Origin: an uncultured bacterium
Lineage (GTDB): Bacteria > Cyanobacteriota > Vampirovibrionia > Gastranaerophilales > Gastranaerophilaceae
DNA length: 64,000 nucleotides
Direction of reading: 5' to 3'
NCBI GenBank assembly: GCA_949296355.1
Contig: CASFPS010000008.1
Span: forward strand, 1 to 64,000
Made by a program: the position numbers and the translations under genes. The notes under the pieces are model-generated. The model was given only the letters and a program-made list of their open reading frames with translations, was not told the origin of the DNA and searched no databases. Shown in pieces: positions 20,562-29,507 of the stretch (position 1 is its first letter; each line of letters starts with the position of its first letter).

Positions 20562-21340
20562 TAAAACTTGTTGCAACTGATATTGACGGTACGCTTTTAA
20601 TTCCTGAAGGGAATTTTACCGAAGGAGTAAAACAGTGTGTTCGCAAATTATGCAATAAAGGAATAAAAGTTGTCCTTGTAACCGGCAGGATGAACGCTGC
20701 AGCAACAAGGATTGCAAAAGATTTAGGGCTTGATACTCCTGTTGTATCTTATCAGGGCGGATTAATAAAGTATCAGGATAAAACCCTCTACGAGAGATGC
20801 CTGACACCGGAGCAGACAGAGAAAATTCTCGATTGGGCAAAAGAGGAAAACATTCATATAAATTTGTATAACGATGATATTTTGTATTCTGAAAAAGAGT
20901 GTTATGAAATTGAGCGCTATTGCAATAATTTGCATACAGAGTATGAAATTTGCGCCTTTAAAGATATAAAAAAAGACAAGGTTAATAAACTCCTTGCAAT
21001 TGATTATTCTAATCCGGATAAAATCGACAGGTTAGAAAAAGAATTGCCGGAGATTTTTCCTGAACTTTATATAGTTAAATCAACTCCGTATTTCCTTGAA
21101 TTTTCAAACAAAGAAGCTTCAAAATACTGTGCTGTACAATTCCTGCAAAATTATTGGGGAATAAAAGAAGATGAGACTTTAACAATAGGCGACCAAAACA
21201 ACGACATTGCCCTCTTAAAAGCCGGCGGAGTACGTGTTGCAATGGGTAATGCAACAGAAGAATTAAAGCAGGTCGCAAATTATACGACAGACACTGTTTT
21301 TAATGACGGGTTTGTAAAAGCAATGGAAAGATTTTGTTAA
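20558..21340 (+). CDS. Cof-type HAD-superfamily phosphatase
   Basis: 260 residues. The HAD motif I Asp pair is in ATDIDGTLL (D8, D10), motif II is in VLVTGR, and the motif IV acidic cluster is in GDQNNDIALL near 208. A Cof-type C2 cap lies between about 85 and 190. Members dephosphorylate small metabolites such as sugar phosphates or flavin precursors; the substrate is not readable. The start overlaps the TolC-like stop by four bases (ATGA), indicating translational coupling. The 3' end overlaps the convergent gene at 21337 by four bases. Confidence 0.9.
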   Translation: MIKLVATDIDGTLLIPEGNFTEGVKQCVRKLCNKGIKVVLVTGRMNAAATRIAKDLGLDTPVVSYQGGLIKYQDKTLYERCLTPEQTEKILDWAKEENIHINLYNDDILYSEKECYEIERYCNNLHTEYEICAFKDIKKDKVNKLLAIDYSNPDKIDRLEKELPEIFPELYIVKSTPYFLEFSNKEASKYCAVQFLQNYWGIKEDETLTIGDQNNDIALLKAGGVRVAMGNATEELKQVANYTTDTVFNDGFVKAMERFC

Positions 21341-22851
21341 GAATATACAAACGGCGGACCGTTTTTGATTTCAAACAAAATATTGTCGGCTATAATTTTT
21401 AACTCTTCGTTGGATTTTCCGTTTTCTTTTTGCTTGAAAAACTCATCGCATAAAGGTTCTATTGCAGATTCTTTTTTTGCTTTAAAGTTACGAAGTTCGG
21501 TAGAAACAAGCCTGTTTTGCAGATTTAATTCAATCTGCGCGTTGTATTTTTTTACCTGAACTTCTTTTACAGCTTCCGCTGCTGCTTTGCCGCCGTAAGC
21601 AAGTGCCGAAATTCCCGCAATTCCGAAAAATAAATTCTTAAACTGCGGATTTTTAGGATTCATAAGCCAGTCATAGAAGAACGAGAGATAGTCATTTACG
21701 TGGGAAAAATAAGTAATTTTATTTCTGCCGCTTCCGCCCATCATCGGATTAACCTTTTCAGTTGCCTGATTCATACTGTCAAGAAGCCTGTTTAAATACT
21801 CTGCCTTCTCCTTTGGAGGCAAATTCATTTTATCTACGGTTTGCTTAACTTCATCAGGTCTTGCATAAACAGATTCCAGAAGATTTTCTATAAGAAGCTT
21901 GTACGCATCTTTTCCGGTCAAAACTTCTCCGTTATGCCCCTGAATTTCTCCTATCGGCTTATTTTTATTAAAATCATCTATTACATTATCCAGCCCTTTT
22001 CTGGTATTTTTAAGCCCTTTTGTAATAAATTCATCACTTTTTCTGATGTTTCTAACTGCCCAGTAGCCGAGTCCTAAAATTGAAAGCAGCGTTATTCCGC
22101 CTGCCAGCAAAAAAGATTTGTTATCATTATTTTTATCTTGTTTTTCTTTGGCTTTAAAAGAAGTATTTTCGTACGGTTTTTCCGGCGCAAGCTCTTCTGA
22201 AAACGCTTTGGCTTTAGAAGAGAGCATACTCCTTATAATCTGAATTTTTCCGGAAAAAGAGCGTGTTTCAACCGCAATCAGGTTTTCCTGCAAATTCTTC
22301 TGAATATCAGCCTCCTGTTTTTTGACCCAGACCTCCTTAAACCCGTCAATAAATATTTTTCCCATAAAAGCCATTGAGCCTAATGTAATCACGCCCAGTG
22401 ATGCGAGGATTGTTTTCCTGCTCGGAGATTGAATCATACTAAAAATACTCTGGTGAATCTCGTCATTAATACAGTGGTTTCTTGTAATTCCCGGCAGCAG
22501 ATATTCTTTTGAACTCTCCAATTTGCCTTTGGAAAACTTTTTCATCATTGCGGTAAATCCGCCCAGCAAAGCCATCACACCTACTGTCGCCGCGCACAAT
22601 GGCAGAAGCGGACTTTTGTTTTTATCCTCTTTTTCGTAAACACCGGAAGGAAGTGGAATTTCATCAGATATTACAAGCGTATCGTAAGTTTCGTTAAGTG
22701 GTGATGACTTTGGTCCTTCAAGCAGCGGGTCTTTGACAAACGTGTTTACAATAACACCTTCTTTAACATAGGTGTCATTCTTTTTTTGAGTATTGGTCAT
22801 ATTTTTCTGGTGTCTTGAAGATTCAAGATCCAGATTCACTTTCGGTATCAT
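21337..22851 (-). CDS. Membrane protein with an internal duplication, unknown
   Basis: 504 residues. There are about four hydrophobic spans, near 80-105, 145-165, 245-265 and 405-425. Two segments are clearly duplicated: after the second span GFKEVWVKKQEADIQKNLQE..ETRSF, and after the fourth AVKEVQVKKYNAQIELNLQN..ELRNF. In both, a helix leads straight into an EV-VKK helix of about 40 residues. An N-terminal region of about 75 residues is polar and could be cytosolic. No family is recognised. It overlaps the upstream gene (22823-23530) by 29 bases and is therefore co-transcribed with it, downstream of a cobalamin-riboswitch-like element. Confidence 0.8.
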   Translation of the reverse strand: MIPKVNLDLESSRHQKNMTNTQKKNDTYVKEGVIVNTFVKDPLLEGPKSSPLNETYDTLVISDEIPLPSGVYEKEDKNKSPLLPLCAATVGVMALLGGFTAMMKKFSKGKLESSKEYLLPGITRNHCINDEIHQSIFSMIQSPSRKTILASLGVITLGSMAFMGKIFIDGFKEVWVKKQEADIQKNLQENLIAVETRSFSGKIQIIRSMLSSKAKAFSEELAPEKPYENTSFKAKEKQDKNNDNKSFLLAGGITLLSILGLGYWAVRNIRKSDEFITKGLKNTRKGLDNVIDDFNKNKPIGEIQGHNGEVLTGKDAYKLLIENLLESVYARPDEVKQTVDKMNLPPKEKAEYLNRLLDSMNQATEKVNPMMGGSGRNKITYFSHVNDYLSFFYDWLMNPKNPQFKNLFFGIAGISALAYGGKAAAEAVKEVQVKKYNAQIELNLQNRLVSTELRNFKAKKESAIEPLCDEFFKQKENGKSNEELKIIADNILFEIKNGPPFVYS

Positions 22852-23530
22852 CTTTTTTCTTTCTTCGCATGATTTTGTGCAGTATGGTTTTTAGATTAAA
22901 GATTTTTTTATCTTCATCAATTTTTGTATCATCGTCTTTTGTGTTATTTCTTTTAAAAATCTTAAAAAGTCCTTCCAGCTTTGATTTTACCGTGCTTACG
23001 ATTTCAGAGACTTTTTTTTCAATAAAAGCCTTGGCTTCCCCGAATACAGCATTAAGCTTATCCTGAATATCGACCAGTTTCTGTTTGATTTGAGATAGTT
23101 TGTCTCTAATATTAGAAATTACATTAAGGACAGCAGCTATACCTTTTATAAGGTTATTTACTCCGCCGACGACGATATTACTAATTGTATACGCAACAGG
23201 TTTTAAAATAAAGCCGGTTGAACTTTGATTGATAAAATCAATCATTTTTTGCGCTAATTTCTCCAGGTTTTGCTGAAACTGCAAAAGCTGTTGCGCATGG
23301 TTGAGCAGATTTTTTTCATGAGCTTCAAGCCTCTGTTCTCTTGCCCTCATCATTGCGCCAATCATTGCACACTGATGGTAACTCCATTCTCCGGCTTTTT
23401 GCGGGCGTTCGCCCATTCTTGTGCTGCCTCCGCCGCCCATACCCGAACAAATAGGACAGGCGCCCGGCGACATTCCGTGCGGACAGGTTCCTGTATTAAC
23501 TTTTCCGGCTCCGGCTGATATTCCTGCCAA
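22823..23530 (-). CDS. CPHG..CPIC zinc-motif protein with central hydrophobic helix, unknown
   Basis: 235 residues starting with TTG at 23530, supported by a strong TAAAGGAAG ribosome site seven bases away. The N-terminus has CPHGMSPGACPICSG, two Cys pairs that could bind one zinc, then a Gly-rich linker. A coiled coil covers about 65-95 and a moderately hydrophobic amphipathic segment covers about 105-140 (VAYTISNIVVGGVNNLIKGI). Another coiled coil precedes a highly charged C-terminus. The family is unknown to me beyond a recollection of similar Cys motifs in gut Melainabacteria. It overlaps the next gene by 29 bases. A cobalamin-riboswitch-like element lies 110-260 bases upstream on the same strand. 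Confidence 0.75.
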   Translation of the reverse strand: MAGISAGAGKVNTGTCPHGMSPGACPICSGMGGGGSTRMGERPQKAGEWSYHQCAMIGAMMRAREQRLEAHEKNLLNHAQQLLQFQQNLEKLAQKMIDFINQSSTGFILKPVAYTISNIVVGGVNNLIKGIAAVLNVISNIRDKLSQIKQKLVDIQDKLNAVFGEAKAFIEKKVSEIVSTVKSKLEGLFKIFKRNNTKDDDTKIDEDKKIFNLKTILHKIMRRKKKDDTESESGS

Positions 23531-23639
23531 TAAAAAACTTCCTTTACTGCTTTTTAGTTTATCTTATGTATTGTTTTGAGGGAAATTTTGCCGCAGTAAT
23601 AGAAAGCTACATACAAAACTGTGACTCGCAGTATTGTTT

Positions 23640-23800
23640 TAAGATTAGCCCCCACCCTCCCCTATGAAGGGATGGAACGAGAGCTCTTGAGCATTCCGGC
23701 TTTTACGGCTGCGGCACAGTCACGGAATTCCACCGTAGTTTCCCCGTATTTAGTTTTCTTTATCGTATGATAAGGATAAATCTTTGTCAAAATAAATAAT
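23640..23800 (-). promoter_or_regulatory. Cobalamin riboswitch-like element
   Basis: Read on the minus strand, 23687-23748 contains GGGGAA, then CTACGGTGGAATTCCGT, then GACTGTGCCGCAGCCGTAA, then AGCCGGAATGC. The order (GGGAA, GGTGnAATnCC, CTGnnCCGCnnCnGTAA) matches the conserved core of B12 riboswitches such as the one before E. coli btuB. The usual 3' AGACCTGCC box is not evident, so the element could be a variant, degraded, or have outer limits different from those given. It is oriented towards the TTG start at 23530. The remaining bases of 23531-24146 hold repeats and no gene. Confidence 0.6.
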
Positions 23801-23841: not shown

Positions 23842-23919
23842 AGTAGTGTGGAGCTTGCTCCACAAGCGTTGTGCAAATTTATTATAAATTAAATTTTGTG
23901 GAGCAAGCTCCACACTACT
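23842..23919. repeat. 78-bp inverted repeat with GTGGAGCTTGCTCCAC ends
   Basis: AGTAGTGTGGAGCTTGCTCC at one end and its complement at the other enclose a short AT-rich centre. Each arm is itself palindromic (GGAGCTTGCTCC versus GGAGCAAGCTCC). A single arm recurs at 29354-29376. It looks like a small mobile or structured repeat with no coding capacity. Confidence 0.8.
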
Positions 23920-29345: not shown

Positions 29346-29507
29346 CAACAGAAGTAGTGTGGAGCTTGCTCCACAAACTAGCTGAGAATACGAAAATTCT
29401 ATGGCGGGTTAAACCCCGACATAAATTAACAAAATAAAGCTTGCATTTTTATTTATAATAACAGAATAGTTTGACCTGATATTCAGGAGGTATAAATCGA
29501 GGTGAAG

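Follow-up and report, generated by a model that had tools for sequence, protein, structure and literature searches.

An AdoCbl-II-class cobalamin riboswitch with predicted OFF logic precedes a conserved, uncharacterised gene pair in gut Gastranaerophilales

What does a cobalamin riboswitch control when the genes behind it have no assigned function? The question arises on the minus strand of a 64,000-nucleotide stretch of DNA (the window) from an uncultured member of the Gastranaerophilaceae, for which an original prediction had proposed such an RNA ahead of two proteins of unknown function. We consider it very likely that the element is an OFF switch of the AdoCbl-II class and that the two genes, called A235 and B504 here, form an operon that is part of the cobalamin response in gut Gastranaerophilales. 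The features at the centre of this reading are the following.

23681..23756, minus strand: AdoCbl-II class cobalamin riboswitch aptamer, P3-P6 core (RF01689 match and family covariation)
23648..23686, minus strand: GC-rich insert hairpin between aptamer core and P13 (sequence)
23613..23637, minus strand: P13 hairpin with loop CGAGUCA (L13) (family linker comparison and folding)

The motifs of a B12 aptamer core had been read in their proper order on this strand, with the Rfam cobalamin models named as the check. Both the order and the models bear the reading out: cmscan matches RF01689 (AdoCbl-II) over its full length (model 1-81) at 23756-23681 with 39.9 bits, above the gathering score of 36.5 bits and with an E value of 5.1e-6 for the 64-kb window, and the related clan models score lower at the same place. 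This match is the sole one in the 2.09-Mb genome, and 133 of the 146 genomes of the family have one. Among 92 distinct aligned core sequences from the family, P4 and P6 covary, with four to five pair types in the P4 columns and compensatory change in P6; one P3 pair shows compatible variation. The complementarity between L5 and L13 that a kissing interaction would use is short and was judged by eye, the L13 motif being conserved as CG-N(1-3)-YA. Judged from its sequence and that of its relatives, the aptamer is a genuine cobalamin riboswitch, and an ordinary one for its known class.

If the likeness were due to chance, or the aptamer a decayed remnant without control over A235-B504, one would understand a score that exceeds gathering by just 3.4 bits, the several non-standard P2 and P3 pairs in the Rfam alignment and a 76-nt core that on its own folds no better than shuffles. 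However, the best copies in the same genus reach 51.4 bits, the complement of the L5 arm is kept in the window, helices P4, P6 and P13 covary, and the gene order described below holds in 118 of 119 genomes. We regard a relic as very improbable, and as already largely refuted.

The claim that the 3′ half of the aptamer is incomplete was wrong. The core ends near 23690 and is followed by the GC-rich insert and then by P13/L13 at 23637-23613. A P13-like hairpin with the loop CG-N(1-3)-YA is found 3′ of the core in 85 of 96 distinct aptamer-linker-start sequences from relatives, compared to 10 expected from shuffles of the same linkers, and the P13 of the window folds alone at -5.7 kcal/mol. The linkers of these relatives range from 59 to 231 nt. 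At the insert site (23648-23686), near relatives have related or different inserts, and the riboswitch seems to tolerate insertion there. The span first assigned to the element, 23640-23800, also stops short on its 3′ side, as the regulatory half extends to the start codon at 23530:

23709..23716, minus strand: L5 arm UGCCGCAG of the aptamer, complementary to linker segment 23589-23596
23589..23596, minus strand: linker segment CUGCGGCA, able to pair with the aptamer L5 arm or within the hairpin that masks the Shine-Dalgarno (SD) sequence
23532..23608, minus strand: expression platform, hairpin AGCUUUCU.AUUACUGC / GCAGUAAAGGAAGUU, then a U6 run (folding and linker comparison)
23545-23538, minus strand: Shine-Dalgarno AAAGGAAG, masked by the platform hairpin directly before the TTG start at 23530

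The platform hairpin has a minimum free energy of -13.9 kcal/mol (z -2.35), and over the 96 sequences the pairing of SD with anti-SD exceeds that of shuffled and of swapped linkers. The linker segment (23596-23589) is the exact complement of the L5 arm (23716-23709), with 8/8 Watson-Crick pairs, while its 5′ part, within UUACUGC, takes part in the SD-masking hairpin. Since this segment is common to both pairings, L5-arm pairing and SD masking are mutually exclusive. Of the 96 distinct linkers, 32 contain a segment complementary to the L5 arm, and changes on the two sides match: arms with UACC in place of UGCC mostly face GGUA. Arms paired with their own linkers score 698 compared to a mean of 657, above all 5000 random swaps, although the linker sequences are related and this score is therefore supporting evidence, not a probability. 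The route of the alternative pairing differs between genera. In the genus of the window it runs through the L5 arm; in many others the linker contains UCCUCU, which can face AGAGGA at the aptamer 5′ end or in the SD. Such a linker is found 35 times, always (35/35) with an aptamer beginning AGAGGA and in 28/35 with AGAGGA as SD. By this computational comparison, the coupling of aptamer and platform, that is, SD masking together with an alternative pairing with the aptamer, is kept among relatives. A run of at least five U lies 3′ of the SD in 65 of the 96 sequences, so SD masking may be joined by termination; the two would act in the same direction, with cobalamin bound as the off state.

The two pairings fit an OFF switch. 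When cobalamin is scarce, CUGCGGCA would pair with the L5 arm, the SD would be free and the operon expressed. Bound cobalamin would hold the L5 arm in the aptamer core, upon which the linker would fold into the SD-hiding hairpin and turn the operon off, and the U-run may also terminate transcription in this state. The element shares with known AdoCbl-II (Cbl-II) riboswitches of RF01689 the aptamer core, the downstream P13, the site before a start codon and the predicted OFF logic. It differs from them in its target, an uncharacterised gene pair.

A candidate promoter lies just upstream:

23762..23790, minus strand: sigma-70-type promoter, TTGACA (23790-23785), 17-nt spacer, TACGAT (23767-23762) (10/12 consensus positions)

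It would place the transcription start at about the first aptamer base. Sites of this quality number two in the 751-base stretch scanned compared to 1.1 expected from shuffles, so the argument for this promoter rests on its position, not its score.

Between the riboswitch promoter and a divergent MATE gene lies a 78-base inverted repeat (23842-23919, AGTAGTGTGGAGCTTGCTCCACA...TGTGGAGCAAGCTCCACACTACT). Its 19-base core is found again at 29357-29375, suggesting a palindromic repeat of the dispersed kind. MicroRNA models of Rfam that match at 23842-23919 were rejected as picking up this palindrome and not RNA genes.

The two open reading frames noted downstream are real, conserved genes. By protein A235, the nearest relatives of the host are named Candidatus Gastranaerophilales (Melainabacteria) bacteria. 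Of 65 genomes in the genus, 62 have A235, as do 135 family genomes and one of the sister family among 240 sampled from the class; B504 is shared by 119 of the 142 family genomes. A listed RF01689 match lies upstream of B504 on the same strand in 101 of these 119 (692-1133 nt, median 794). When the remaining 18 loci were checked singly, 17 had a cobalamin-clan match 770-895 nt upstream, mostly weaker, all but one with an E value of at most 0.0022 and the last with 0.058. The gap is therefore mostly a matter of threshold and listing. Thereby a cobalamin riboswitch is found about 0.8 kb upstream of B504 on the same strand in 118/119 genomes, with only one genome (G109) lacking it, and the predicted arrangement of riboswitch, CPHG..CPIC protein and duplicated membrane protein is upheld in these genomes.

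The riboswitch and B504 are also absent together (counts 117/13/2/10, Fisher p value = 9e-8, not corrected for phylogeny and with three of the B504 absences inferred by elimination). Where a genome has no riboswitch match, B504 is mostly missing too, and as this is seen in several genera, repeated loss is likely. Genera g25 and g30 have A235 behind the riboswitch and then other small proteins in place of B504; these loci point to A235 as the constant partner of the riboswitch. The small proteins (at loci L176, L186, L187, L193 and L207) have 166-210 aa and an FD-x2-KVD-x-FVK-like motif, and the two examined have no Pfam match. A third gene resembling them follows B504 in 28 of 71 loci. Comparison across genomes establishes the aptamer, P13, the SD-masking hairpin as a predicted fold and the conservation of the riboswitch-A235-B504 order, and by the same comparison the pairing of riboswitch and genes is not due to chance.

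The encoded proteins are as follows.

22823..23530, minus strand: A235, 235-aa all-helical protein with an N-terminal CPHG-x5-CPIC motif and a TTG start (alignments)
21337..22851, minus strand: B504, 504-aa protein with four hydrophobic segments and an internal repeat (alignment, hydropathy, repeat search)

The B504 reading frame overlaps A235 by 29 nt. Invariant in the A235 alignments are C16, P17, H18, G19, C25, P26, C28, C54, K158 and E165, amongst which C16-P-H-G, C25-P-x-C28 and C54 probably form a metal site. The protein consists of long helices with one mildly hydrophobic stretch at about 110-135. Hydropathy places the hydrophobic segments of B504 near 82-101, 148-166, 246-264 and 406-425, its model predicts two helices of about 75 residues, and its C-terminus NILFEIKNGPPFVYS is near-invariant in the alignment. 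The internal duplication claimed for this membrane protein is real (hhalign E 2.7e-7; BLAST 35% identity over 62 aa, E 2e-9).

Searches of Pfam, NCBIfam, PADLOC and the PDB, the last by sequence and by fold, gave no significant match for either protein; for A235, no Pfam or NCBIfam family scores above cut-off and PADLOC gives no match. Coiled-coil matches of A235 (Apolipoprotein, tape measure, ZorA) were discarded as marginal or below curated cut-offs. Confidence in the AlphaFold models is low to moderate (pLDDT 66-70), and two structural candidates based on them were rejected: A235 as a PspA-like protein (Foldseek E 2.1, not significant) and B504 as a two-component alpha-helical pore-former (best Foldseek E 0.047, not significant). 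Both proteins share with PspA/Vipp1 and ClyA/XaxAB-type proteins the long amphipathic helices beside hydrophobic segments. They differ in that neither Foldseek match reaches significance and no sequence relation was found.

One rival reading places the operon outside cobalamin metabolism. Cobalamin could tell the cell where in the gut it is, and A235-B504, with the third gene in some species, could be a surface, envelope or inter-bacterial device. Within the sampled class, only one gut-associated family and a single sister-family genome have the operon, neither protein shows a recognisable B12-handling fold, and the likeness of B504 to pore-formers and of A235 to PspA, non-significant as it is, points the same way. 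Nevertheless, the structural matches come from weak models, loss of the riboswitch goes with loss of the genes, and the regulon has ordinary B12-related genes as its other members. We think such a cue unlikely.

Those other members were read from about 40 further riboswitch copies in the family. Most precede NrdD-NrdG, whereas some, in genus g19 and in one other genome (G038), precede a TonB receptor, a FecCD permease and an ATPase resembling BtuB-BtuC-BtuD. The A235-B504 pair is the commonest target in the family. NrdD-NrdG, the class III ribonucleotide reductase, lies downstream of the AdoCbl-II riboswitch at L172, L174, L183, L199 and other loci, which suggests a putative AdoCbl-dependent reductase in those genomes. 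BtuB-BtuC-BtuD-like loci under the riboswitch are L177, L181, L190 and L175, and the plug-domain receptors of the g19 and G038 loci, with one in G049, are the only ones in 30 genomes tested. In G032 (L198/L216), a TIGR04190-like B12-binding radical-SAM protein lies behind an AdoCbl-II riboswitch. NrdD-NrdG and BtuB-BtuC-BtuD are gene kinds that cobalamin represses in known systems, and the targets in the family are a normal cobalamin regulon. The expectation that B12 control marks uptake or a B12-independent isozyme thus holds in this family, where the same riboswitch class precedes both.

Both kinds of target offer a precedent for A235-B504. In E. coli, the uptake genes btuB and btuBCDF are under feedback from a cobalamin riboswitch, as this operon would be, and BtuB-BtuC-BtuD-type genes are likewise so placed in g19 and G038. 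Unlike them, A235 and B504 have no BtuB, BtuC, BtuD or BtuF domain and belong to no beta-barrel, ATPase or permease family: no TonB-dependent receptor, FecCD permease, ATPase or binding-protein domain was found in them, nor did an ECF S-component (CbrT) or BtuM model match in Pfam or NCBIfam. With the B12-independent isozymes NrdD-NrdG the operon shares the riboswitch class and the family, but A235-B504 matches no enzyme family and thus no B12-independent isozyme family.

By analogy with NrdD-NrdG, A235-B504 might spare B12, at low cobalamin replacing a cobalamin-dependent process or compensating for it. The control of that isozyme by the same family riboswitch speaks for this, as does a host genome without MetH or class I/II ribonucleotide reductase. 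On the other hand, two helical, membrane-associated proteins of no catalytic family are unlike enzymes, and a B12-dependent counterpart for them to replace is not obvious in the host. We find a sparing role rather doubtful.

The need for cobalamin and its route into these cells bear on the remaining explanation, acquisition or retention of corrinoids. An assessment family by family finds neither MetH nor class I/II ribonucleotide reductase nor QueG in the host, whose two PF02310 matches, both radical-SAM proteins, are the sole B12-type proteins found. One kind of B12-type radical-SAM protein occurs also in genomes without the operon (L217, L218). The host need for cobalamin is thus not evident, which counts against a cobalamin-limitation operon. 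CbiC is absent in 142/142 family genomes. Our survey of importers covered FecCD/BtuC and the TonB plug domain. FecCD/BtuC is absent in 130/142 family genomes, host included, and the plug domain in 24 of 30 genomes tested, again including the host; the other six have it. Four genomes with A235 (G030, G034, G040 and G087) have MetH and neither FecCD nor a plug domain, so cobalamin should enter them by another route.

In known diderm bacteria, cobalamin is imported by BtuB with BtuCDF, and a riboswitch works only if cobalamin gets into the cytoplasm. Therefore either A235-B504 or some other route not found here imports it. The Gastranaerophilales/Melainabacteria belong to the diderms (Soo et al. 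2014, PMC4040986). That A235 and B504 are unlike any known transporter counts against an acquisition role, as do eight genomes in which FecCD and B504 occur together. A strict replacement of BtuBCDF by A235-B504 was set aside: it fits g19, which has BtuB-BtuC-BtuD under the riboswitch and no B504, but not these eight genomes.

It is reasonable to infer that the A235 and B504 proteins handle cobalamin. Our best guess, a tentative one, is non-canonical corrinoid acquisition or retention, which we rank ahead of B12 sparing and of a location signal. The riboswitch would turn down a dedicated cobalamin-limitation operon, in which B504 in the membrane and A235 as its probably metal-binding helical partner would form a membrane-associated complex. 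As the least certain step, this complex may help cells without BtuBCDF to obtain or retain corrinoids. The broadest form of the proposal, held with less than even confidence, is that a non-homologous system for corrinoid acquisition or retention, with A235-B504 at its core, replaces TonB-BtuBCDF under direct cobalamin feedback, in nearly a whole diderm gut family unable to make cobalamin.

At the level of titles and abstracts, the open-access literature gave no description of cobalamin riboswitches in Melainabacteria or Gastranaerophilales. What is new here is the target, an uncharacterised, lineage-specific operon under predicted cobalamin control in bacteria that lack cobalamin synthesis and mostly lack the known BtuBCDF importer. 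Cobalamin is contested in the gut, and the family keeps its cobalamin riboswitches (133/146 genomes) yet has no CbiC (0/142) and mostly no BtuC. The analysis leaves two named, conserved protein families whose function is directly testable. Because their pairing with the riboswitch is kept though nearly all of these genomes are without the standard B12 importer, A235 and B504 may well belong to a part of B12 biology that has gone unrecognised.
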